Of a DNA stretch of 64,000 bases, positions 1,882-21,841 are shown piece by piece (within the stretch, counting starts at the first letter, position 1; each line of letters begins with the position of its first letter). The position numbers and the translations under genes were made by a program. Under the pieces are notes generated by a model that did no database searches, was not told where the DNA came from, and saw only the letters and a program-made list of their open reading frames with translations. This DNA comes from an uncultured Acinetobacter sp. (GTDB taxonomy: Bacteria; Cyanobacteriota; Vampirovibrionia; Gastranaerophilales; Gastranaerophilaceae), in the NCBI GenBank assembly GCA_947306495.1, contig CAMZGT010000002.1, positions 1-64,000 of the forward strand. Direction: 5' to 3'.

Positions 1882-2082
1882 TTAAACCTTCTTTCTCTCA
1901 CTCTCAAAATCTGATTTCCATTTATCCGTATCGTAAATATTTTTCAACATACCCTGCAAAATAAGAGGGTTTATGTCGGTATTTGATAAACGGACAATAT
2001 TATCTAACTGATACGACCTAGTTTTTGAGTATTCTTCACTCATAACTAGGTCATATTTTTCTATCAAAATATCTTTATTCAT
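1882..2082 (-). CDS. Small phage head-region protein, unknown function
   Basis: ORF track 1882-2136; internal ATG (MNKDILIEKYDLVMSEEYSK...) at 2082 gives a short overlap with the portal gene and is the likelier start. Confidence 0.5.
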   Translation of the reverse strand: MNKDILIEKYDLVMSEEYSKTRSYQLDNIVRLSNTDINPLILQGMLKNIYDTDKWKSDFESERKKV

Positions 2083-4012
2083 AAATTTGCATTTTACTTT
2101 CGGGTTTTTCGATAAGCGGAGTAGTTGGTATTCCAAACTCCGAACTTATATTTACCCCTTCTCTTGGTATCTCTATTGGACTAGGATTTGCAACTTTTTG
2201 TTTTTCTTTTTCCTGTTGTACTTGATTTATCATTTCTTGCACCGCAGGGTTTTGCATCAAAATTTGTTGAACTTCCATTGGCATTTGTTCCATAGGCTGC
2301 AAAAATCTTTCGGGATTTTCTACGCCTTTTTGTTCCATATACCAAACAAATATTGACTGAACATTTAGAGGAATATGATTTGCAAATCTTTCTACCGCAA
2401 GAATAACCATATCGGCAAAACTAAATCTTTCCGTCATTGAATTTCGGTCTGAATAAGTATAGCGATATTCTGCCTGTCTTACTTCGTCAGTAATAACAAC
2501 ATTTTCGGGGTTATTATCTTTATTTAAAAATATTTGTTCCGTACCAAATTTGAAGTTTGCACAAAGTTTAGCAACATTTTTAACGGTAGGTATAATAAAG
2601 TATTGATTTATTACATCCAAAACCATTGAAAGACGAGTTGTTTGCCCCTGTGTTTTTACATTAATTTCCGTAGCGGTTTTAGTCCTGTTTTCTTCAGCAC
2701 CCATCATATTTGGGAAGATGCCGGATATTTCACTCATTAAATCGGATAAAAATGTAATATCGTTAATAAAGATATTGCTTTGAAAAGTCATTGGCTGAAT
2801 ACTGCTAGAAGTATAAAGTTGCGGATCGTATGTAATTATCTTTCCGGGATATAGTTCCACATCATCATCGTCAAAGAAATCTTTAGGACAAAGTAATGGT
2901 GGGTTTTCCGATAATGATTGCATATCAACAGTTTTATTCAGTAAATTTTCTTGAACATGTGCCAAATCTAAAACGGAATAAAGAGGGCTTATTCCTCTCT
3001 TTGTTTCGGGATCTTGCAGAAAAGCACCAAATGAAAACGGATTAATAACAAACTTATTCTTTTCAAATCGGACTAAATATTTACCACCGACAACTACTGC
3101 GTGCCAATTTCTTAAAACTTCACCACTCGGCAAAGTAAAGTTTCCCCAATGTTCTAACACTTCAACGGTTGAGCCGTTTTTGTGTTTATCTAACAGAGAA
3201 TCTTTTGATTGGTTTAATAAGTCGGAACTATCCGGCTCTTTTGATACCATACCTCTTAATTCTCTAGCGATTTCGGGAGTTATTTCATAGCATTTGTTAT
3301 TGATAATATCATCCGGTGTTCGCCAAGTCCTGTTTATTTTCGGACAATTATCAAAATCATCTGCTTGTGTAACATCAAAAACAAAGTCAGCCGGATTAAC
3401 AGGAATAATATACGGATTATCGTAAACTATTTTTTCATCAATATAGAAGTTTTGACCTTTTGATTTTGCCTCAATAATTTTTGGTAAATTTTTTATATCA
3501 TTCCTAAACAAAATCTCAAAAAAGTTTATAGGTCTGCGATATTCTTCTTTTCGTGTTCGCCAAGTAGTAAATGATACCAATTCGCCATAAATTAAAGCAT
3601 TATCAATAACAGTATCGCATATTTGCGGATATTCCATTTTTTCAAGAATATCTACAAGCATAGCCTTTTGTTTGTTTGAATTATTATCAGCCTCTAAAGA
3701 TTCGCCCGATACATCAAACATTGAATTTATGCCGGAGTAAGTATTTTTCCAAATAAAAGCCTTAAAAGTTTGATAGTACATAAAGATTTTGCACATCTTA
3801 ACTTTGGCTTTCCATTTTTTGTTTTTATCGGTTATTTTGGATAAATCTTTTTTGAAAAATATCTCTTTAATAAGTTCATTTGCCATTGATAAATTACTTT
3901 GGCGAGAATCATTATATGTTTTAAAATCGGTAACAATCCTTTTTGCTATATTTGCTTTTTCTTCATTGGATAACTTTTTTACCTTTTTAAATTTTTCTAT
4001 AATGTATTCCAT
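2075..4012 (-). CDS. Phage portal protein
   Basis: 645 aa; portal-like composition and position (SGIFPNMMGAEENRTKTATEINVKTQGQTTRLSMVLDVINQYFIIPTVKNV), between TerS-like and scaffold genes. Confidence 0.75.
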   Translation of the reverse strand: MEYIIEKFKKVKKLSNEEKANIAKRIVTDFKTYNDSRQSNLSMANELIKEIFFKKDLSKITDKNKKWKAKVKMCKIFMYYQTFKAFIWKNTYSGINSMFDVSGESLEADNNSNKQKAMLVDILEKMEYPQICDTVIDNALIYGELVSFTTWRTRKEEYRRPINFFEILFRNDIKNLPKIIEAKSKGQNFYIDEKIVYDNPYIIPVNPADFVFDVTQADDFDNCPKINRTWRTPDDIINNKCYEITPEIARELRGMVSKEPDSSDLLNQSKDSLLDKHKNGSTVEVLEHWGNFTLPSGEVLRNWHAVVVGGKYLVRFEKNKFVINPFSFGAFLQDPETKRGISPLYSVLDLAHVQENLLNKTVDMQSLSENPPLLCPKDFFDDDDVELYPGKIITYDPQLYTSSSIQPMTFQSNIFINDITFLSDLMSEISGIFPNMMGAEENRTKTATEINVKTQGQTTRLSMVLDVINQYFIIPTVKNVAKLCANFKFGTEQIFLNKDNNPENVVITDEVRQAEYRYTYSDRNSMTERFSFADMVILAVERFANHIPLNVQSIFVWYMEQKGVENPERFLQPMEQMPMEVQQILMQNPAVQEMINQVQQEKEKQKVANPSPIEIPREGVNISSEFGIPTTPLIEKPESKMQIYE

Positions 4013-7099: not shown

Positions 7100-7184
7100 A
7101 AAGACAATATATGTTAAAGCAGGGGGTAAGCGAGGGGTTTGGATTCCATTCCCTTCGTTTATTCTATGTAATAAAAGAACTGAA

Positions 7185-7210
7185 GTCGGATAAAGTCCGG
7201 CTCTTTTTTT
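7185..7210 (+). terminator. Predicted intrinsic terminator
   Basis: AGTCGGA-TAAAG-TCCGGCT followed by CTTTTTTT. Confidence 0.65.
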
Positions 7211-7239: not shown

Positions 7240-7443
7240 GTGAGAACTGTAACACTCAATGCTGAAGATATAAAGACATTATTAGATGAAGGCGAATTAT
7301 ATTTATCATCAGATAAAACCATTTATTTTTCAGATGTTGAAGGATTCAAACTTGAATTAAGTTACAAAGGTGACGGCTATAAACCGATAAAAGCCGTCAT
7401 TGATTTTGTTTATGACGAAAATATAAAGTTTACGGAAGGATAA
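7240..7443 (+). CDS. Hypothetical small phage protein
   Basis: Track gives 7111-7443, but a terminator lies inside that 5' part; in-frame GTG at 7240 follows GGAAAGGAAGG. Confidence 0.55.
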   Translation: MRTVTLNAEDIKTLLDEGELYLSSDKTIYFSDVEGFKLELSYKGDGYKPIKAVIDFVYDENIKFTEG

Positions 7444-7446
7444 AAT

Positions 7447-8088
7447 ATGTCAAAAGATTATTTACTTGAATTTATAAAATGTATGGAAAGTGTTGATAGA
7501 AGTAAACACAATTTTGAGATTTTTCAAGATTTTTTGATTATGGCATCAGCATCTTTCAATAATGCAATAGTAAAAGATGAAAATGTTGAAAATGAATATA
7601 TGGAAGTCGTGCAACGATATAAAGATGTAAAGCCGTTATGTGAATTGCTTGCAATAACTACAATGGCATTAGAACAAAAAATGCACGATTTTTTAGGTGA
7701 AGTTTATATGTCCGCAGGGTTTGGTAACAAACACAACGGACAATTTTTTACACCATATCACATGTCATTATGTATGGCAAAAATGCTTATAGGTGAATAT
7801 GTAGAAAATGAAATAAAAGAAAAAGGCTATTACACTTTATCAGAGCCTTGTTGTGGTGCGGGTGGAATGATTATCGCATTTGCAAACACACTACTTGATA
7901 AAGGATATAACCCTCAAAAAATAATGAAGTTTTTAGGAACGGATATTGATATTGGTTGTTGCAGAATGGCATATATCCAAACATCTTTATTGGGATTAAA
8001 AGGTGATATTGTGCATGGTAACACTCTTTCACTTGAAATATGGCGAAAGTTTACAACACCAATGTCATATCTGACTTTAGCAGCATAA
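7447..8088 (+). CDS. N-6 adenine methyltransferase-like phage protein (SAM-binding motif present, catalytic NPPY/F not seen)
   Basis: NGQFFTPYHMSLCMAKML and SEPCCGAGGMIIAF resemble HsdM-type N6_Mtase; ends without (N/D)PP(Y/F). Confidence 0.7.
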   Translation: MSKDYLLEFIKCMESVDRSKHNFEIFQDFLIMASASFNNAIVKDENVENEYMEVVQRYKDVKPLCELLAITTMALEQKMHDFLGEVYMSAGFGNKHNGQFFTPYHMSLCMAKMLIGEYVENEIKEKGYYTLSEPCCGAGGMIIAFANTLLDKGYNPQKIMKFLGTDIDIGCCRMAYIQTSLLGLKGDIVHGNTLSLEIWRKFTTPMSYLTLAA

Positions 8089-8149: not shown

Positions 8150-8186
8150 AAAAAAGGCACTTGTCAATTAAGACAGGTGCTTTTTT
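8150..8186 (+). terminator. Predicted intrinsic terminator
   Basis: AAAAAAGGCACTTGTC-AATTAA-GACAGGTGCTTTTTT. Confidence 0.8.
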
Positions 8187-8201: not shown

Positions 8202-9509
8202 ATGATATGTAAAAATTGTGGAAAAATGGTATTGCCAAAAGACGGACATTTACTTGATTATGAGTTCTTTTGTTCGGATTGTGCAATAGAATGTCACGAT
8301 TGTGGCGAGATTATTTTAAAAGATAGTGCCTATAAAACGGCAGATGAATATTACATTTGCGATAGTTGTTTAGATGATGATTACCGATATTGTGATGATT
8401 GCGGTGAAATCTTCAAATATGACGAAGTTACATGGATTGAAAATGAAGAAAAATATATTTGTGACAGTTGCTTAGATGAAGGTGAATACTACTCTTGCGA
8501 ATGTTGTGAAAAATATTTTAGCAAAGACGGTTTAGAACGGACTTATGATAATAATTGGGTTTGTGATGATTGCAGATGTAATGATTATTACTATTGTAAC
8601 GATTGTGGCAGAGCAACGCATCGTGATGATTGCCATTATATAGAATATCGTGATGCCGATTATTGCCCGAATTGTTATGACAACCATACTTGCGAAGATT
8701 ATATATACAGTTATCACGATTTTGATTGTTTTTCAAAACGCAAAACGGCAGACGAGCCATTAACTAATGAATACTTTGGTTTTGAGTTAGAAGTATCGGG
8801 TAATAGAGATTATGCTGAAGAATTTTTAGACCAAGTTTCTGATGTCGTATTAATGAATGACAGTTCTATTGAAAATGGTGGTTTTGAAATCGTCACTCAA
8901 CCAATGACGAGAAGATACTTCAAAGAACGATTTAAACCAATGTTTGAAAAAGGCTTGAAATTCCTAGACCAAAACGGATTCTACGGACATGGAATGGGTG
9001 GTATGCATGTCCATGTTTCTGCTGATATTTTTTCAAAAAGACAAATTGCACAAATGGCTGAAATCCTATACGGCAACGAAGATGATAGAAATATTTGGTT
9101 TTGTATATCACAACGCAAAGAAAAGAATATGGAAGAATGGAGTTGCATGACGGATCGCAATAGGTCGTTTGATGAAATTGTGAATTATGAATATGGTATG
9201 CCGAAAGTAGCGGATGATAGACATACCGCTTTAAATTTTGATAGCAGAACTTTTACTTATGAAATTAGAATATTTAACTCAAATACAAGAATAGAACGAG
9301 TTGTAAAAAATATGGAATGTGTATTTGCCCTAGTTGATTACACAAGACAAGAAGTAGATAACCCTTACAAGTGCAACACAAGAGGGTTTATAAACTTTGT
9401 TTTTGACAATCGGCTTGAATATCCATATTTATACGCATTTTTACTTGAACGCAGAGTAGAAGAACATTTTGGAATCAAATATACGGAAAAAGAATTGGAG
9501 GCAGCATAA
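8202..9509 (+). CDS. Amidoligase-like enzyme with five N-terminal CxxC..CxxC zinc-binding modules
   Basis: C-terminal motifs YFGFELEVSG, NDSSIENGGFEIVTQPMT, GGMHVHVS, TFTYEIRIFNSN match my knowledge of amidoligase_2 (GS-like COOH-NH2 ligase) proteins; N-terminus has five paired CxxC units. Confidence 0.75.
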   Translation: MICKNCGKMVLPKDGHLLDYEFFCSDCAIECHDCGEIILKDSAYKTADEYYICDSCLDDDYRYCDDCGEIFKYDEVTWIENEEKYICDSCLDEGEYYSCECCEKYFSKDGLERTYDNNWVCDDCRCNDYYYCNDCGRATHRDDCHYIEYRDADYCPNCYDNHTCEDYIYSYHDFDCFSKRKTADEPLTNEYFGFELEVSGNRDYAEEFLDQVSDVVLMNDSSIENGGFEIVTQPMTRRYFKERFKPMFEKGLKFLDQNGFYGHGMGGMHVHVSADIFSKRQIAQMAEILYGNEDDRNIWFCISQRKEKNMEEWSCMTDRNRSFDEIVNYEYGMPKVADDRHTALNFDSRTFTYEIRIFNSNTRIERVVKNMECVFALVDYTRQEVDNPYKCNTRGFINFVFDNRLEYPYLYAFLLERRVEEHFGIKYTEKELEAA

Positions 9510-10318
9510 TGTGTATTGCAATAGTTAAACCACAAGGCACTCAAATCTCTGACGAGTGCTTGCGAAATTGTTTTGAAAATAACCAAGACGGTGCCGGAAT
9601 TGCTTATGCAGTAAACGGCAAATTATATGTAACAAAAGGAATTTTTAAACTTGATGATTTTATGAAAAATGTAAGAGCAGTAGAAAAAATTGCTGAAGGT
9701 GATATTTTAATCCATTGTCGTATCGGAACAAGCGGAAAGAAAGATAAGAATAATTGTCATCCTCATTGGGTAAATAGTTCAGTTGTAATGATACATAACG
9801 GAATTTTGGATATTGATGTGCCGGATAAAAGCGAAGTATCAGATACTATTCTTTTTATAAATGAATATTTAAGTAATTTACCCGAAGATTTTATTAAAAA
9901 TACTTCAATTTTAAAACTGATTGAGCAAGTTATCGGTAAAAATAACAAATTTGCTTTTTTAAATAATAAAGGTGAATCAGCAATTTGTAATATAAAATCC
10001 GGTGTAGTTGATGAAGGCATTTGGTATTCAAACGAAACCTATAAATATAACAGTTATTGCGGTTATAGATCTTATTCTCAAAGAGAAATTCTTGATTATT
10101 TTGAAGATTATATCGGAACATTGGAAGATGATGAATATGAAAATTTAGGCGAATATCCTCTTATTGATAGATATGATTGGGTATTAGTGCCTTTTTCAAA
10201 AGAAAATTACAGGGATAGATACAATTACATAAGTTTAAAAAGTTATTCTGAACAACTTTATAAACAGTATCAAAAAGGATTTAAAGATTTTAGCAAAAGA
10301 TACAAAATTGCATCATAG
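9509..10318 (+). CDS. Class-II glutamine amidotransferase (Ntn hydrolase)-like
   Basis: Starts MCIAIVKPQG (Cys2 nucleophile), NNQDGAGIAY, HCRIGTSGKKDKNNCHPH, MIHNGIL. Stop/start overlap (TAATG) with amidoligase gene. Confidence 0.8.
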   Translation: MCIAIVKPQGTQISDECLRNCFENNQDGAGIAYAVNGKLYVTKGIFKLDDFMKNVRAVEKIAEGDILIHCRIGTSGKKDKNNCHPHWVNSSVVMIHNGILDIDVPDKSEVSDTILFINEYLSNLPEDFIKNTSILKLIEQVIGKNNKFAFLNNKGESAICNIKSGVVDEGIWYSNETYKYNSYCGYRSYSQREILDYFEDYIGTLEDDEYENLGEYPLIDRYDWVLVPFSKENYRDRYNYISLKSYSEQLYKQYQKGFKDFSKRYKIAS

Positions 10319-11024: not shown

Positions 11025-11245
11025 TGAATATTTATCGTGTAGTTTTAAGCATACAAGATTATGACACTATGGAAAAAATTAATAAAATCACAGGCTCTTG
11101 TGAATTTAATGATGAAAATTGGGTAAATTTGGAAGTTATACAAGAATACCCAAAATTGTTGGAATACATAACTGATGAAGAATTAAATGCACTTAAAAAC
11201 AAAGAGATTGATACTGTTGTTTTTACGGCATTATCTTCAGTATAA
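11024..11245 (+). CDS. Small acidic protein, paralogue A
   Basis: 73 aa; aligns over its length with 11516-11734. Confidence 0.65.
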   Translation: MNIYRVVLSIQDYDTMEKINKITGSCEFNDENWVNLEVIQEYPKLLEYITDEELNALKNKEIDTVVFTALSSV

Positions 11246-11258
11246 GAAAGAGGTATAA

Positions 11259-11525
11259 ATGGAAACAAAATATTTTGTAGAATATGCTGATTATTTATTT
11301 AAGCCTGTTTTATATTCAGAAAAGCAATTAAAAGAATATGCAATAAGTCTTTATGACGAATACTTAAAAACAGGCGAACAGGAATTATTATTGGAAGATT
11401 ATAACAGGAATGATTTATCTCATACTGATAAAGCATTAGATTTTTTAAACCGTAGATTTTCTGATGATGATATACCATTTCAAGAAGTAGAAATTTATAA
11501 GGAAAGGAAAGAAAAATGGCAGTAA
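11259..11525 (+). CDS. Hypothetical acidic protein
   Basis: 88 aa ORF with SD AAGAGG, between the two paralogues. Confidence 0.6.
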   Translation: METKYFVEYADYLFKPVLYSEKQLKEYAISLYDEYLKTGEQELLLEDYNRNDLSHTDKALDFLNRRFSDDDIPFQEVEIYKERKEKWQ

Positions 11526-11734
11526 TAGACAAAGTTATTATGAGTTTACAAGAATCAGACGATATGGAAAGGATTAACAGTATTACCGGAATTAGTTATG
11601 ACAATACTGATAATTGGGTGGATATTGAAACAATCGAAGAAAACCCCGAATTAAAACAATACATATCAGATGATGAGTATGATGCTATGTTAAATGGCGA
11701 GGCTGATTATATTGCATTTAGGATAGATTATTAG
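11516..11734 (+). CDS. Small acidic protein, paralogue B
   Basis: 72 aa; shares ME(K/R)IN(K/S)ITG...(D/E)NWV(N/D)(L/I)E.I.E.P.L..YI.D(E/D)E..A with 11024-11245. Confidence 0.65.
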   Translation: MAVIDKVIMSLQESDDMERINSITGISYDNTDNWVDIETIEENPELKQYISDDEYDAMLNGEADYIAFRIDY

Positions 11735-12286: not shown

Positions 12287-12651
12287 AAAATAATTATATT
12301 GATGATTATACAAATTATAAAAATAAAGAAGAAGTTATTGCGGATGCAACAAGATTTTATCATGAGCATTTTCAACAAGAAGATGATTATGACAAAGATT
12401 TTGAAGTAACAACATTTGAACAGGCAAAAAAATTTTGGGAATGTAACGGTTATGAAGTAAAGGAACGAAAAGGCAGGGAGTATATTTGCCCTGTGTGTGA
12501 TTCTAAAAATACCGATTCTTCCGGTAGCGAAATAGAAGGCGGATATATAACCTACCATTACTACTGTAAAGATTGTGGTGCTACTTATGACGAAGATTTT
12601 GAGCTTGTATTTAGTGGTTTTGATAATGTATCATTATCTAGCAATACATAG
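12256..12651 (+). CDS. Hypothetical protein with zinc ribbon
   Basis: 131 aa; ICPVCDSKNTDSSGSEIEGGYITYHYYCKDCGATYDED; overlaps previous ORF by 31 bp. Confidence 0.65.
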   Translation: MFIKIDADWVKNNYIDDYTNYKNKEEVIADATRFYHEHFQQEDDYDKDFEVTTFEQAKKFWECNGYEVKERKGREYICPVCDSKNTDSSGSEIEGGYITYHYYCKDCGATYDEDFELVFSGFDNVSLSSNT

Positions 12652-13309
12652 AATGAAATAAACCGACAACTTGACCTACAATTCTAAAATTAAGTGTTTT
12701 GTCAATTATAAACGGTGGATAATTGGTATTCTTGGATATTGCAATAATACTGTTACCGCTTGTTTTTAATTCTTTACACATTGGCTGACCGTCATAACTA
12801 AATACATAGATTTGACCGTCTTTTACACTTGTTTTAGATTTATCAACCAAAATCATATCGTTATCATTAATATCCGGTGACATACTATCGCCTTTTGCGT
12901 ATATAATTTCAGTTTCGTGCTTATCAGCATTAAAGTATTTTTGCAATAATTGACTTGGCAAAGGCAAGTTTTCAGATGTAAATTCGTCATAAACTTCTAC
13001 ACCAAAACCGCAACTTGCTGATACATCAGATTTAACAGGAACATTTACCATATTAGGTTTATCAGCAAATTGTTTGTATAATTGTGTATCAGTTTTGCCG
13101 ATTTCTTCTAAATGTTGAACTAACATTAATTGTTCTTCCTTTGTTATAGCAGAATTACGGCTAAATCTTAACCCAATATTTTGTCTTGTAAAATTAAAGA
13201 TTTTGGCATACTTTGATTGGGAAATTTTGCCAATTTCCTCTACATATTGAGCATAAATGCTACTATGCATGTACTTGTCGGAGCAAGCACAGTTGTCTTT
13301 CTTTTTCAT
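12638..13309 (-). CDS. Phage repressor, HTH plus S24/LexA-like peptidase
   Basis: SASCGFGVEVYDE cleavage-type segment, YAKGDSMSPDINDNDMILVD and KDGQIYVF catalytic region; ATG at 13309 chosen over 13330 because an operator-like palindrome overlaps the latter. Confidence 0.8.
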   Translation of the reverse strand: MKKKDNCACSDKYMHSSIYAQYVEEIGKISQSKYAKIFNFTRQNIGLRFSRNSAITKEEQLMLVQHLEEIGKTDTQLYKQFADKPNMVNVPVKSDVSASCGFGVEVYDEFTSENLPLPSQLLQKYFNADKHETEIIYAKGDSMSPDINDNDMILVDKSKTSVKDGQIYVFSYDGQPMCKELKTSGNSIIAISKNTNYPPFIIDKTLNFRIVGQVVGLFHSMYC

Positions 13310-13325
13310 ATTACTCCAGCAATTT

Positions 13326-13341
13326 GTCAAATGTGATTGAC
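13326..13341. promoter_or_regulatory. Candidate repressor operator 1
   Basis: GTCAAATGTGATTGAC, imperfect dyad sharing the GATTGAC half-site with 13462-13477. Confidence 0.6.
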
Positions 13342-18041: not shown

Positions 18042-19100
18042 ATGAGTGTATTTAAGAAGGGTAATAGCAATAAATGGTATTATCGCTTTCAACTAAACGG
18101 AAAAGAGTATTATAGAGCATGTAAGGGTGCGGTTGATCAAAAGACCGCACTCCAATACGAAGCAGTAGTAAAAGCCGAGATTATGAAAGGTAATCTCGGT
18201 ATTTTAGATAATAAACCGAAACCTACTCTAAAATATGCAATAAAACTATATTTAGATTATTCAGAATGTAATAAAAAATCATATAAAGGTGATTTGCGAA
18301 GTACGGATATATTTTTAGAGTACTTTGGAAATATCAATTTAGAGGACATTACTCCGGCTAAAATAGAAGATTTTAAACGAGATGTTAAAAATAATACCGG
18401 AAATAAAAATGCCACTATAAATAGATATTTACAAGCATTAAGTAAAATGTTAAATATAGCCGTTGCAAATGAACTGATAAATAAAAACCCAATGTGGTCG
18501 GTTAAAAAATTAAAAGAAAATAATTATAAAACTAGAGTTTTAATGCCGGAAGAAGAAGAACGATTATTCAAAGAAATAGAACGAGGTTATGAAGTCATAG
18601 GCAGGGATAGGAAAAAGAAAATAATATATCCGTACCTTTATCTTAAAAACATAATAATTTGTGCTTTACAAACGGGAATGAGAAAGGCTGAAATATTAAA
18701 CCTAAAATGGTCTAATATTGATTTTGATTACGAATATATAGAGTTGTATGTTACTAAATCCGGTAAATCTCGTAAAATACCAATATCAACAAAATTAATG
18801 AAAATACTCAAAGAGATATTGGCATCAAGCAATTCTGAATATGTATTTGTAAATCCTTCTACAAATGCCAATTATATTGATATACATAAATCTTTTGAAA
18901 CTGTTTTGGAAAATGCAAAAGTTAATAACTTTAGATTCCATGATTTAAGACATACAGCTGCAACAAGAATGTTAGAAAAAGGGGCTGATATAAGAACAGT
19001 ACAGGAAATTTTAGGACATAGTAGCGTATCGGTTACTGAAAGATATACACACACCAACGCAAAAAATAAGAAAAATGCTATTGAGTTATTATGCTCTTAA
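18042..19100 (+). CDS. int: Tyrosine site-specific integrase
   Basis: [59 protein letters not shown]. Confidence 0.95.
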
Positions 19101-19249: not shown

Positions 19250-19325
19250 TGGAGCGGACGACGAGACTCGAACTCGCGACAGTCTGCTTGGAAGGCAGAT
19301 ACTCTACCAACTGAGCTACGTCCGC
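19250..19325 (-). tRNA. tRNA-Gly (TCC)
   Basis: GCGGACGTAGCTCAGTTGGTAGAGTATCTGCCTTCCAAGCAGACTGTCGCGAGTTCGAGTCTCGTCGTCCGCTCCA: complete cloverleaf, anticodon loop CTTCCAA, encoded CCA. Confidence 0.95.
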
Positions 19326-19544: not shown

Positions 19545-20183
19545 TTATTGAGGTAGCGGAGAAGTTGCACCATTTATCGGTTCTGTAGGAATATCTTCTG
19601 TTTGCTCCGGTGACGTATGAGCATATAGTCTTAAGCTGATATTTGATATCAGTACCTTTTTATCTTTAGCATATGGTTTAACTTCGATATTATTAATTTT
19701 TATATAATATGGATATTGATAAACATCCTGAATAAATTTGCCAAGATTAACATAATTAGAAACAACTTCCATTTCTACATCACATACAAAGTACACGTCT
19801 TTACCAAATTTAACAAATGAATCAGTCTCAGGATTATAAGTGTATTCAATTGTTTTTATTTTTATAGAATTAGAATGAAGCATTTCAATTACATCATTAT
19901 ATAGAGTGAAAAATAATGTGTCATTGCCTAAATCAGATTCTATAGGTGAATAAATTTTCTTTTGAGAAGATACAATAGAATTTTTTATTTTTTTAATTTT
20001 ATTCTGTACAATAGTTATTTTGCTTTTTAAGCTGCTTAATTGGTTCTCTTGATTTTCTATATTTGATTTTAAGTTGCTTGTTTCTGCTATTCTTGGCCCT
20101 AAAATTAAATAAACAGCCAAAAATAATGCAAATAAAGCTGCTGCAAAAATCATTACGCCATAATATTTTTTGTATTTATCCAT
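19545..20183 (-). CDS. PilO-like type IV pilus assembly protein
   Basis: N-terminal TM plus coiled coil, downstream of PilM/PilN-like protein. Confidence 0.6.
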   Translation of the reverse strand: MDKYKKYYGVMIFAAALFALFLAVYLILGPRIAETSNLKSNIENQENQLSSLKSKITIVQNKIKKIKNSIVSSQKKIYSPIESDLGNDTLFFTLYNDVIEMLHSNSIKIKTIEYTYNPETDSFVKFGKDVYFVCDVEMEVVSNYVNLGKFIQDVYQYPYYIKINNIEVKPYAKDKKVLISNISLRLYAHTSPEQTEDIPTEPINGATSPLPQ

Positions 20184-20197
20184 TATTTTTTAACCCT

Positions 20198-21841
20198 TTA
20201 CTCTTTTATTGGTTCTAAATCAGGCAAACCGTTGCCTTTTTTGTCACCTTTCTTTAACTCTTCTTTAGAAACCTCCGGTTCATTAGAAATCCTAAATTCG
20301 TAGAAATCAGCGTTCATAGAAGTTAGTATTGACTCAGTGTCAAATTCGTTGCTGCCGTTTAACGCAAAATTCTTTGATTTTGATGCAAGACCGAGTTTTT
20401 GCAATTTTATATCTGATTCAGGATCATAATCTTTTATACTTCTAAAGAAAGCATAAACACTTTCTAAATTATCAGCTTGACCTTCAATAGTAATGTTATT
20501 TCCAAATTTCAATTGAGTTAACCACAACTTTTTAGGGATTTCGGTTCCTACTATTGTATAGTATGAATAAATTGCTTTATTATGTTCAAGACCGACTCTT
20601 ATTTCATCTCCTTCATCAAAAAGTTCGGACGAAATGTCTTCATTATCTTTTAAGAATTGGTTACTTGCTTTAATTTTTTCTGCTAAATCCTCCGATTGCT
20701 GTTTTTGAGAGTTAATTTTTGTAACAAGTATAATTAGTGATAAAAATGTTATAGCAATAATGATAATTGCAATCATAATAAACCATTTAGCCAGCTTATC
20801 ATTGGAAAGAACATATGTTTTTTCACGTATCGTTATTTCCGGAGGTTGTTCTGAATAATAAACATCTCCCAATAATTTGTTAAACAAATTAAATTTTGCA
20901 GACTCATATGGTTCGAATTCTCTGTATATTGCAGCTCCGATTGCGTCCAATGTTATTTGACTTGCAACAGACGATTCTACTGAGTCATCCAAATTTAGAA
21001 AAACTTCATTGGAAAAAGCATTTGCTTCCTGATATGTAATCGGAGCAGAATAAGTGAGCTTGTTTGAAAGCATTTCTGCGCTTATTATATCTGTTTTTGA
21101 TACTACACATAAGTATTTTGACGGCAAATTCTTAATAATAGGCTCAACTGCAGTCATAACTGTTGAATAATTCTCTGCATCACCGAGGACTTCACCAATG
21201 CTTATCTTCTCTTCGAAAGCATCAATATAATTGTTGCCATTCATTGAAAATACTCTGCAACAATAATTTTCCACTACAAGAAGCACCCAGTTAACATCAG
21301 GTTCTGTATTTACTCTCTCTAAGTACATCAAAGAATTTATTGTTGAATTTACTGATGTATCAAACCCATATATCTTATAGCCTAAGTCTTTGAAAATAAG
21401 AGCAATCTCCAAAATCATACTTTTTGAAGATGCAGTGTATGCGACTTTATTGAATTGTATTGTAGAATTCGGTAGTATTGAGTAGCTGTAACAAGCCTCT
21501 TTCTCTTGATACAAAGGTGTTCCGAGCAGTTCTTCTTCTATTGCATTGGATATCTGAAATTCATCTAATGCCGCAGGATAATCATTGACTTTGAATAGTC
21601 CTGCAGGAATATTCAAAACTATCTCTGCATTTTTGGGAATTTGCATCTCTATAAATAAATCTTGTACAGCATCTTTGAATAAGTCTAAGTCAGCTATTTC
21701 TCTCTGATTTATGCTAAATCCTAAGCTCCGAGTTCCATACTTCAGCAAAGTTTTTGTATCAAAATCAATTTGCGCAACTTCTAAGCCTTTTTCAGGAGTC
21801 ACACAAACGCCAACTATTATGCTCTTCTTAAATAAATCCAT
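20198..21841 (-). CDS. PilM-PilN-like fusion protein
   Basis: PilM/actin-like N-terminus (IVGVCVTPEKGLEVAQIDFD), TM at WFIMIAIIIIAITFLSLIILV, then PilN-like coiled coil. Confidence 0.65.
   Translation of the reverse strand: MDLFKKSIIVGVCVTPEKGLEVAQIDFDTKTLLKYGTRSLGFSINQREIADLDLFKDAVQDLFIEMQIPKNAEIVLNIPAGLFKVNDYPAALDEFQISNAIEEELLGTPLYQEKEACYSYSILPNSTIQFNKVAYTASSKSMILEIALIFKDLGYKIYGFDTSVNSTINSLMYLERVNTEPDVNWVLLVVENYCCRVFSMNGNNYIDAFEEKISIGEVLGDAENYSTVMTAVEPIIKNLPSKYLCVVSKTDIISAEMLSNKLTYSAPITYQEANAFSNEVFLNLDDSVESSVASQITLDAIGAAIYREFEPYESAKFNLFNKLLGDVYYSEQPPEITIREKTYVLSNDKLAKWFIMIAIIIIAITFLSLIILVTKINSQKQQSEDLAEKIKASNQFLKDNEDISSELFDEGDEIRVGLEHNKAIYSYYTIVGTEIPKKLWLTQLKFGNNITIEGQADNLESVYAFFRSIKDYDPESDIKLQKLGLASKSKNFALNGSNEFDTESILTSMNADFYEFRISNEPEVSKEELKKGDKKGNGLPDLEPIKE

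Follow-up and report, generated by a model that had tools for sequence, protein, structure and literature searches.

An overlapping amidoligase-glutaminase gene pair with an N-terminal zinc-module array in a Gastranaerophilales prophage

Genomic location of the gene pair

In the 64,000-nucleotide stretch of DNA analyzed here (the window), which starts at the first base of its contig, a gene for an amidoligase and a gene for a class-II glutamine amidotransferase (GAT, glutaminase) overlap on the forward strand (Table 1). The ORF list contains both open reading frames at the expected coordinates, and the genome harboring them has a size of 1.65 Mb. The pair is part of a prophage, the host being a bacterium of Candidatus Gastranaerophilales, as it is surrounded by genes for a portal protein, an S24-type repressor, YqaJ, RecT, SSB, a DnaB-like helicase and an integrase beside a tRNA-Gly. 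This agrees with the prophage setting that a previous, sequence-only reading of the locus had assumed. The left end of the prophage falls off the contig.

Table 1. Features of the gene pair and of its prophage surroundings (positions in the window).
Feature	Position	Strand	Evidence
Portal protein, prophage context	2075..4012	-	PF23899, E 9.5e-14
N6-methyltransferase-like ORF (213 aa), non-obligatory neighbor	7447..8088	+	PF02384, E 1.7e-10; PHROG 5696
Terminator-like hairpin and T tract, ending 15 nt before the amidoligase ATG	8151..8186	+	Leader fold, ortholog alignment
Amidoligase gene (435 aa): N-terminal zinc-module array and predicted GS-like carboxylate-amine ligase domain	8202..9509	+	PF12224, AlphaFold2, Foldseek
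Five tandem CxxC...CxxC zinc modules (residues 3-158)	8208..8675	+	Cys conservation, Foldseek to LIM domains
Predicted GS-like catalytic domain (residues ~190-420)	8769..9461	+	Residues invariant in 45 relatives; PF12224
Shine-Dalgarno sequence GGAGG and overlapping stop/start TAATG	9497-9501; 9507-9511	+	Sequence, orthologous loci
Class-II (Ntn) glutamine amidotransferase domain protein (269 aa)	9509..10318	+	PHROG 25883, NCBIfam, PDB 1xff, AlphaFold2, Foldseek
S24-type repressor, prophage context	12638..13330	-	PF00717, E 3.7e-24
Tyrosine integrase, prophage context	18042..19100	+	PF00589, E 1.3e-39; adjoins tRNA-Gly
tRNA-Gly beside integrase	19250-19325		tRNA call

A syntenic prophage with the same pair was found in another genome of the genus (G044), the ligases being 48% and the glutaminases 62% identical. 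A copy of the tRNA-Gly end was absent from the upstream stretch examined in this genome, and the left prophage end was not located. Of the 64 further genomes of the genus that were searched, just G044 and G063 encode an ortholog of the glutaminase, a distribution that fits mobile cargo. In all, 96 genomes gave an apparent match to the glutaminase, but most of these matches, judged by open frames of about 620 amino acids, are to the host GlmS, which is not an ortholog.

Upstream of the pair lies an N6-methyltransferase-like ORF that has a motif-I-like sequence (EPCCGAGG) and lacks the NPPY motif. Its ortholog in G044 is 58% identical and equally short, so that a truncated methyltransferase seems conserved. 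DNA modification by this neighbor was considered as a part of the system and rejected, since the gene is replaced by another ORF in G063 (locus L024) and is without the NPPY motif. Downstream of the pair, at 11026-11246 and 11516-11734, lie two short ORFs for acidic paralogs of about 72 amino acids, the second of which has relatives in G044 and G063. The region 19545-21841 comprises host genes beside the integration site; a 547-amino-acid ORF therein is weakly PilN-like (E 7e-4, below the cut-off), which suggests a putative type IV pilus assembly locus.

The 75-nt leader of the amidoligase gene folds at -22.2 kcal/mol and contains a terminator-like hairpin. It is kept in three distinct Gastranaerophilales loci, with a compensatory change of one base pair on both sides (GCAC/GTGC versus GCTC/GAGC), and is retained although the upstream gene differs in one of the three. 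Such a structure occurs in 0.5% of random stretches from the same loci. As there is little room between the hairpin and the ATG, expression of the amidoligase probably depends on read-through or antitermination. A further terminator-like site was noticed at 7184-7202, 5′ of an ORF starting near 7240.

Predicted domains and active sites of the two proteins

The amidoligase is a member of the family PF12224 (Amidoligase_2), whose profile matches residues 226-372 with 24.5 bits at a curated Pfam cut-off of 22 and also matches 43 of its 45 relatives at E ≤ 0.01. In a Foldseek comparison with the PDB, the AlphaFold2 model of the protein (pLDDT 87.4) matched Dop, YbdK and glutamine synthetase (GS) with high probability, and also PafA; the TM-scores of the full-length model against proteins of the GS fold reach only about 0.2-0.33 by query length, and the rmsd is large. 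Many phage amidoligases were matched with high probability as well, some of them end to end. Judging from this model, the catalytic domain has the fold of the GS superfamily (Dop, YbdK, GS), which comprises GS-fold carboxylate-amine ligases and their derivatives (PMC7947786, PMC3511204). Searches of the PDB by sequence alone, with either the ligase or its profile, returned no Dop, PafA, YbdK or GS, and the proteins found were unrelated, mostly zinc proteins. The upstream ORF had been read as an amidoligase from its sequence, with a structural check of the C-terminal domain proposed, and this domain was found to match amidoligases in sequence and in fold.

Among the 45 relatives the residues E195, E197 (ExE), D220, E229, H269 (of HxH), R305, N345, E354 and R356 (ExR) are invariant. 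Along the chain, ExE, acid/Glu, HxH and ExR presumably succeed one another as the ligands of metal and phosphate do in GS, a comparison of order and not a superposition. A loss of active-site Glu, His or Arg residues, which would have spoken against the earlier reading, was looked for, and the candidate residues turned out to be conserved. The candidate metal/ATP site thus appears intact, and ATP-dependent amide-bond formation is predicted. The distant amidoligases of L040, L041, L096 and L106 show no HxH or ExR by a simple pattern search, with glutaminase partners that look intact; these ligases are possibly divergent or inactivated.

The N-terminal 160 residues contain five zinc modules, whose 20 cysteines are conserved in the three Gastranaerophilales copies. 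Module 5 (C132, C135, C155, C158) is invariant across the 45 relatives, which have up to 10 CxxC motifs each by a simple pattern count. The structural model also matched the LIM domains of LMO2, PINCH, Lhx3 and Isl1, with probabilities mostly between 0.82 and 1.00, and these matches are placed in the cysteine-rich N-terminal half because the zinc modules lie there. The modules are therefore termed LIM-like by their predicted fold only; the Pfam LIM profile (PF00412) found no match in the amidoligase of the window and matched one of the 45 relatives (E 0.0096). LIM domains are known protein binders. Similar zinc-plus-amidoligase architectures were found by Foldseek in other phage proteins of the database, and one phage protein with an overall fold similar to that of the ligase (A0A6J7X2B6) is annotated as 'LIM domain containing protein'.

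The glutaminase begins with MC and carries HCRIGTSG at residues 69-76, HPH at 84-86 and MIHNG at 94-98. It scores 14.1 bits with Pfam GATase_4 (cut-off 23) and 12.8 bits with GATase_6 (cut-off 27), and is by these cut-offs not a member of either family. Matches were obtained to PHROG 25883 (E 1.5e-12), to PDB 1xff by sequence search (E 2e-4) and to the NCBIfam model of the GlmS N-terminus (E 2.6e-11, far below the whole-protein cut-off of this model). The AlphaFold2 model (pLDDT 93.2) gave GlmS and its glutaminase domain as the clearly best fold matches (3ooj, E 4e-8; 1xff, TM 0.54 by target length), whereas EgtC matched more weakly. The protein is a divergent member that is classed, by fold and catalytic residues, only under the wider class-II group. 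In 52 relatives there is no variation at C2, H69, R71, H84, N97, G98 and D112, and hardly any at T74. Cys2 is the predicted nucleophile once the methionine is removed, and the putative catalytic set and the glutamine-binding residues are intact. The assignment to a glutaminase Ntn domain, for which these motifs had been cited, is thereby corroborated by the fold match to GlmS. A known anti-phage defence system was considered as well and rejected, as the PADLOC defence models gave no match for the ligase; the glutaminase reached E 0.005 with one candidate model.

Linkage and co-divergence of the two genes

The stop codon of the amidoligase gene overlaps the start codon of the glutaminase gene, as had been noted before, and the GGAGG sequence ends 7 nt 5′ of this ATG, within the amidoligase gene. 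The identical TAATG overlap is present in the orthologous loci L023 and L024.

Single-protein scans of viral contigs gave no relative of the glutaminase and one of the amidoligase. The first two alignments used for glutaminase searches were too diverse, and a closer alignment led to 123 relatives, from which 80 phage loci were kept. An amidoligase gene is located directly upstream of 66 of the 71 phage glutaminase ORFs with at least 1.5 kb of upstream sequence, and the neighborhood survey proposed earlier thus confirms the conservation of the pair in other phages. Of the five glutaminase ORFs without an amidoligase, four are tandem copies in a single contig and one is a short second copy in another (L073). 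Since the orthologous loci keep the overlap and these phage relatives have the pair, the arrangement is not due to chance. Among 82 pairs, the genes have a spacing of -1 in 32 cases and of -10 in 31 (together 63); some of the loci are near-duplicates, and 51 pairs are left after their removal. As the survey began from one GAT family, it is silent on amidoligases without this partner. The contig with the four tandem copies (L110:5536-9758) represents an unexplained amplification of class-II GAT genes without an amidoligase, which directly follows an adenylosuccinate-synthetase-like gene (PF00709) and precedes a DHFR-like ORF.

The ligase and glutaminase genes co-diverge, their distance matrices being correlated with r = 0.93 (maximum 0.30 over 2000 permutations), much of which is given by co-inheritance in one genome alone. 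Between two close copies, dN/dS is about 0.06 for the ligase and 0.13 for the glutaminase; both genes are under purifying selection. The two genes are furthermore found near each other in the unrelated phages Marvin, MEP402, MW202733, StenR_269 and a Christensenellales phage. In the last two of these, the GAT related to that of the window is not immediately beside the PF12224 amidoligase.

Proposed reaction, competing explanations and known systems

The pair most likely amidates a carboxylate in a glutamine-dependent reaction, probably with a docked protein or peptide as the substrate. The glutaminase would hydrolyze glutamine and pass the ammonia to the ligase; like GS and PafA, the ligase would use ATP to activate the carboxylate as an acyl-phosphate, from which it would form the amide. 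The zinc array may dock the substrate, which is most likely a protein or peptide of the host or the phage, and the gene overlap would aid matched amounts of the two subunits. We infer this chemistry, i.e., amide formation fed by ammonia from glutamine, with graded confidence. A glutamine-fed amidating enzyme of any kind is rather probable, and the chances are about even for the full arrangement, an ammonia-fed enzyme of two subunits with a substrate docked by the zinc array. That the substrate is a protein is less probable and can be proposed tentatively. More generally, the LIM-like array could be an interchangeable adaptor by which many phages have side-chain or C-terminal carboxylates of host or phage proteins amidated with ammonia from glutamine, an unlikely extension at present; such a reaction would be the chemical reverse of the deamidation of Pup by Dop. 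A protein or peptide is favored as substrate because of the LIM-like modules and the fold kinship to PafA and Dop, enzymes whose target is a protein tag (PMC3511204, PMC7947786).

The strongest rival is gamma-glutamyl chemistry, since YbdK ranks with the best structural matches of the ligase, roughly level with Dop, and the Ntn site would suit the hydrolysis of gamma-glutamyl compounds. YbdK (GCS2) or PuuA join the gamma-carboxyl group of glutamate to an amine; if the ligase did likewise and the partner acted on gamma-glutamyl amides in the manner of EgtC, the pair would add and remove, or trim, a gamma-glutamyl group. The compatibility of the glutaminase active site with this hydrolysis and the EgtC match count against glutamine-dependent amidation, as do the low TM-scores and large rmsd of the ligase model, and a gamma-glutamyl cyclotransferase (GGCT) adjoins the pair in a few phage loci. 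However, the partner is matched best by GlmS, and coupled synthesis and hydrolysis without an intermediate step would be futile. In addition, the cyclotransferase family PF06094 is absent from the Gastranaerophilales genomes searched (that of the window and G044) and from the complete records of Marvin, MEP402 and MW202733, and gamma-glutamyl chemistry is accordingly regarded as unlikely. The pair could also be the core of a pathway that makes a small metabolite, an amide or a peptide, for which some phages encode an ATP-grasp enzyme or the host supplies one. A RimK/D-Ala ligase-like ATP-grasp gene is present in 34 of the collected phage loci, usually directly 3′ of the glutaminase gene, and the gene sets described in passages on LUZ24-like phages (PMC3890496) and Phage-ZRK32 (PMC10945688) point in the same direction. 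An ATP-grasp or GGCT gene beside the pair suggests that in other phages a longer pathway leads to a peptide-like product. PF08443 was negative in the complete phage records but detects this ATP-grasp family poorly, and the search was therefore repeated with the profile of the family itself and positive controls. By this search the family is absent from the genome of the window (92% complete), from G044 (74%) and from complete Marvin, MEP402 and MW202733. The core therefore occurs without ATP-grasp and, with the cyclotransferase lacking there as well, can stand alone as two genes. Zinc modules resembling those for protein docking are moreover hard to reconcile with a free metabolite, and a metabolite pathway is decidedly unlikely for the window.

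Amidation of a carboxylate in peptidoglycan or in a receptor, directed against superinfection, is very unlikely. It was proposed for phiEco32 (Iyer et al., 2009, quoted by PMC10580990 and PMC11318856), and the passage on MurT/GatD of Staphylococcus describes a ligase with a glutamine amidotransferase-like protein that amidates peptidoglycan (PMC3267633). In most relatives, however, the pair lies beside replication genes and not beside wall or surface genes, and no experimental test of the proposal was found in the passages of the literature searched. The GATase of MurT/GatD, moreover, belongs to another class. Finally, the pair might have no enzymatic function at all, being catalytically dead or a regulatory cargo, as the few distant relatives without HxH or ExR could indicate; with all candidate catalytic residues present in the window and the close copies under purifying selection, this is extremely improbable. 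Glutamine-dependent amidation of a carboxylate thus stays the preferred reading.

Pairs of amidoligase and glutaminase are widespread in phages, and predictions that they modify proteins, walls or metabolites go back to 2009. The prophage pair is among the simplest versions, with two overlapping genes, an intact predicted active site and a zinc array resembling protein-binding ones. Therefore, glutamine-dependent amidation of a protein or peptide is directly testable in a heterologous host. The association of the two genes has already been published for LUZ24-like phages (PMC3890496), OM43 phages (PMC10580990, a passage of which quotes Iyer et al., 2009 and the proposals for Marvin) and Phage-ZRK32 (PMC10945688). 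The passages concerned report no demonstrated substrate, nor was one found in the literature searched. The present analysis adds the leader hairpin, the number of zinc modules and their predicted LIM-like fold, a measure of how closely the two genes are linked, and a minimal version with two genes in Gastranaerophilales.

Compared with known systems, the pair has the same gene order as gp105/gp106 of Marvin and Marvin-like phages, in which the gene of an amidoligase-type protein with N-terminal CxxC motifs immediately precedes that of a class-II GAT; in the parts that match, the proteins are about 25% and 31% identical. The Marvin genes are 79 bp apart, whereas those of the window overlap, and Marvin has fewer CxxC motifs before the catalytic domain, compared to ten here. 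The marine OM43-bacteria phages MEP401 and MEP402 (PMC10580990) have an overlapping pair of amidoligase (PF12224) and GATase (PF13522), the latter being 40% identical; their amidoligases have a longer N-terminus with far fewer CxxC motifs, and MEP402 is likewise without ATP-grasp or GGCT in profile searches. The early gene sets of LUZ24-like phages, UFV-P2 and phiEco32 combine a PF12224 amidoligase and a class-II GAT (Iyer et al., 2009, as cited in a passage of PMC3890496). According to this passage, UFV-P2 has an HNH gene between the two as well as a second COOH-NH2 ligase, an ATP-grasp and an AIG2/GGCT protein, whereas the window has the pair only. Dop and PafA of pupylation, YbdK (GCS2) and GS share the predicted catalytic fold and differ in their N-terminal domains. 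With the eukaryotic LIM domains of LMO2, PINCH and Lhx3, zinc modules 1-2 share the predicted fold and the approximate cysteine spacing, but the ligands are all cysteines and three residues lie between two fingers, compared to two in LIM domains.
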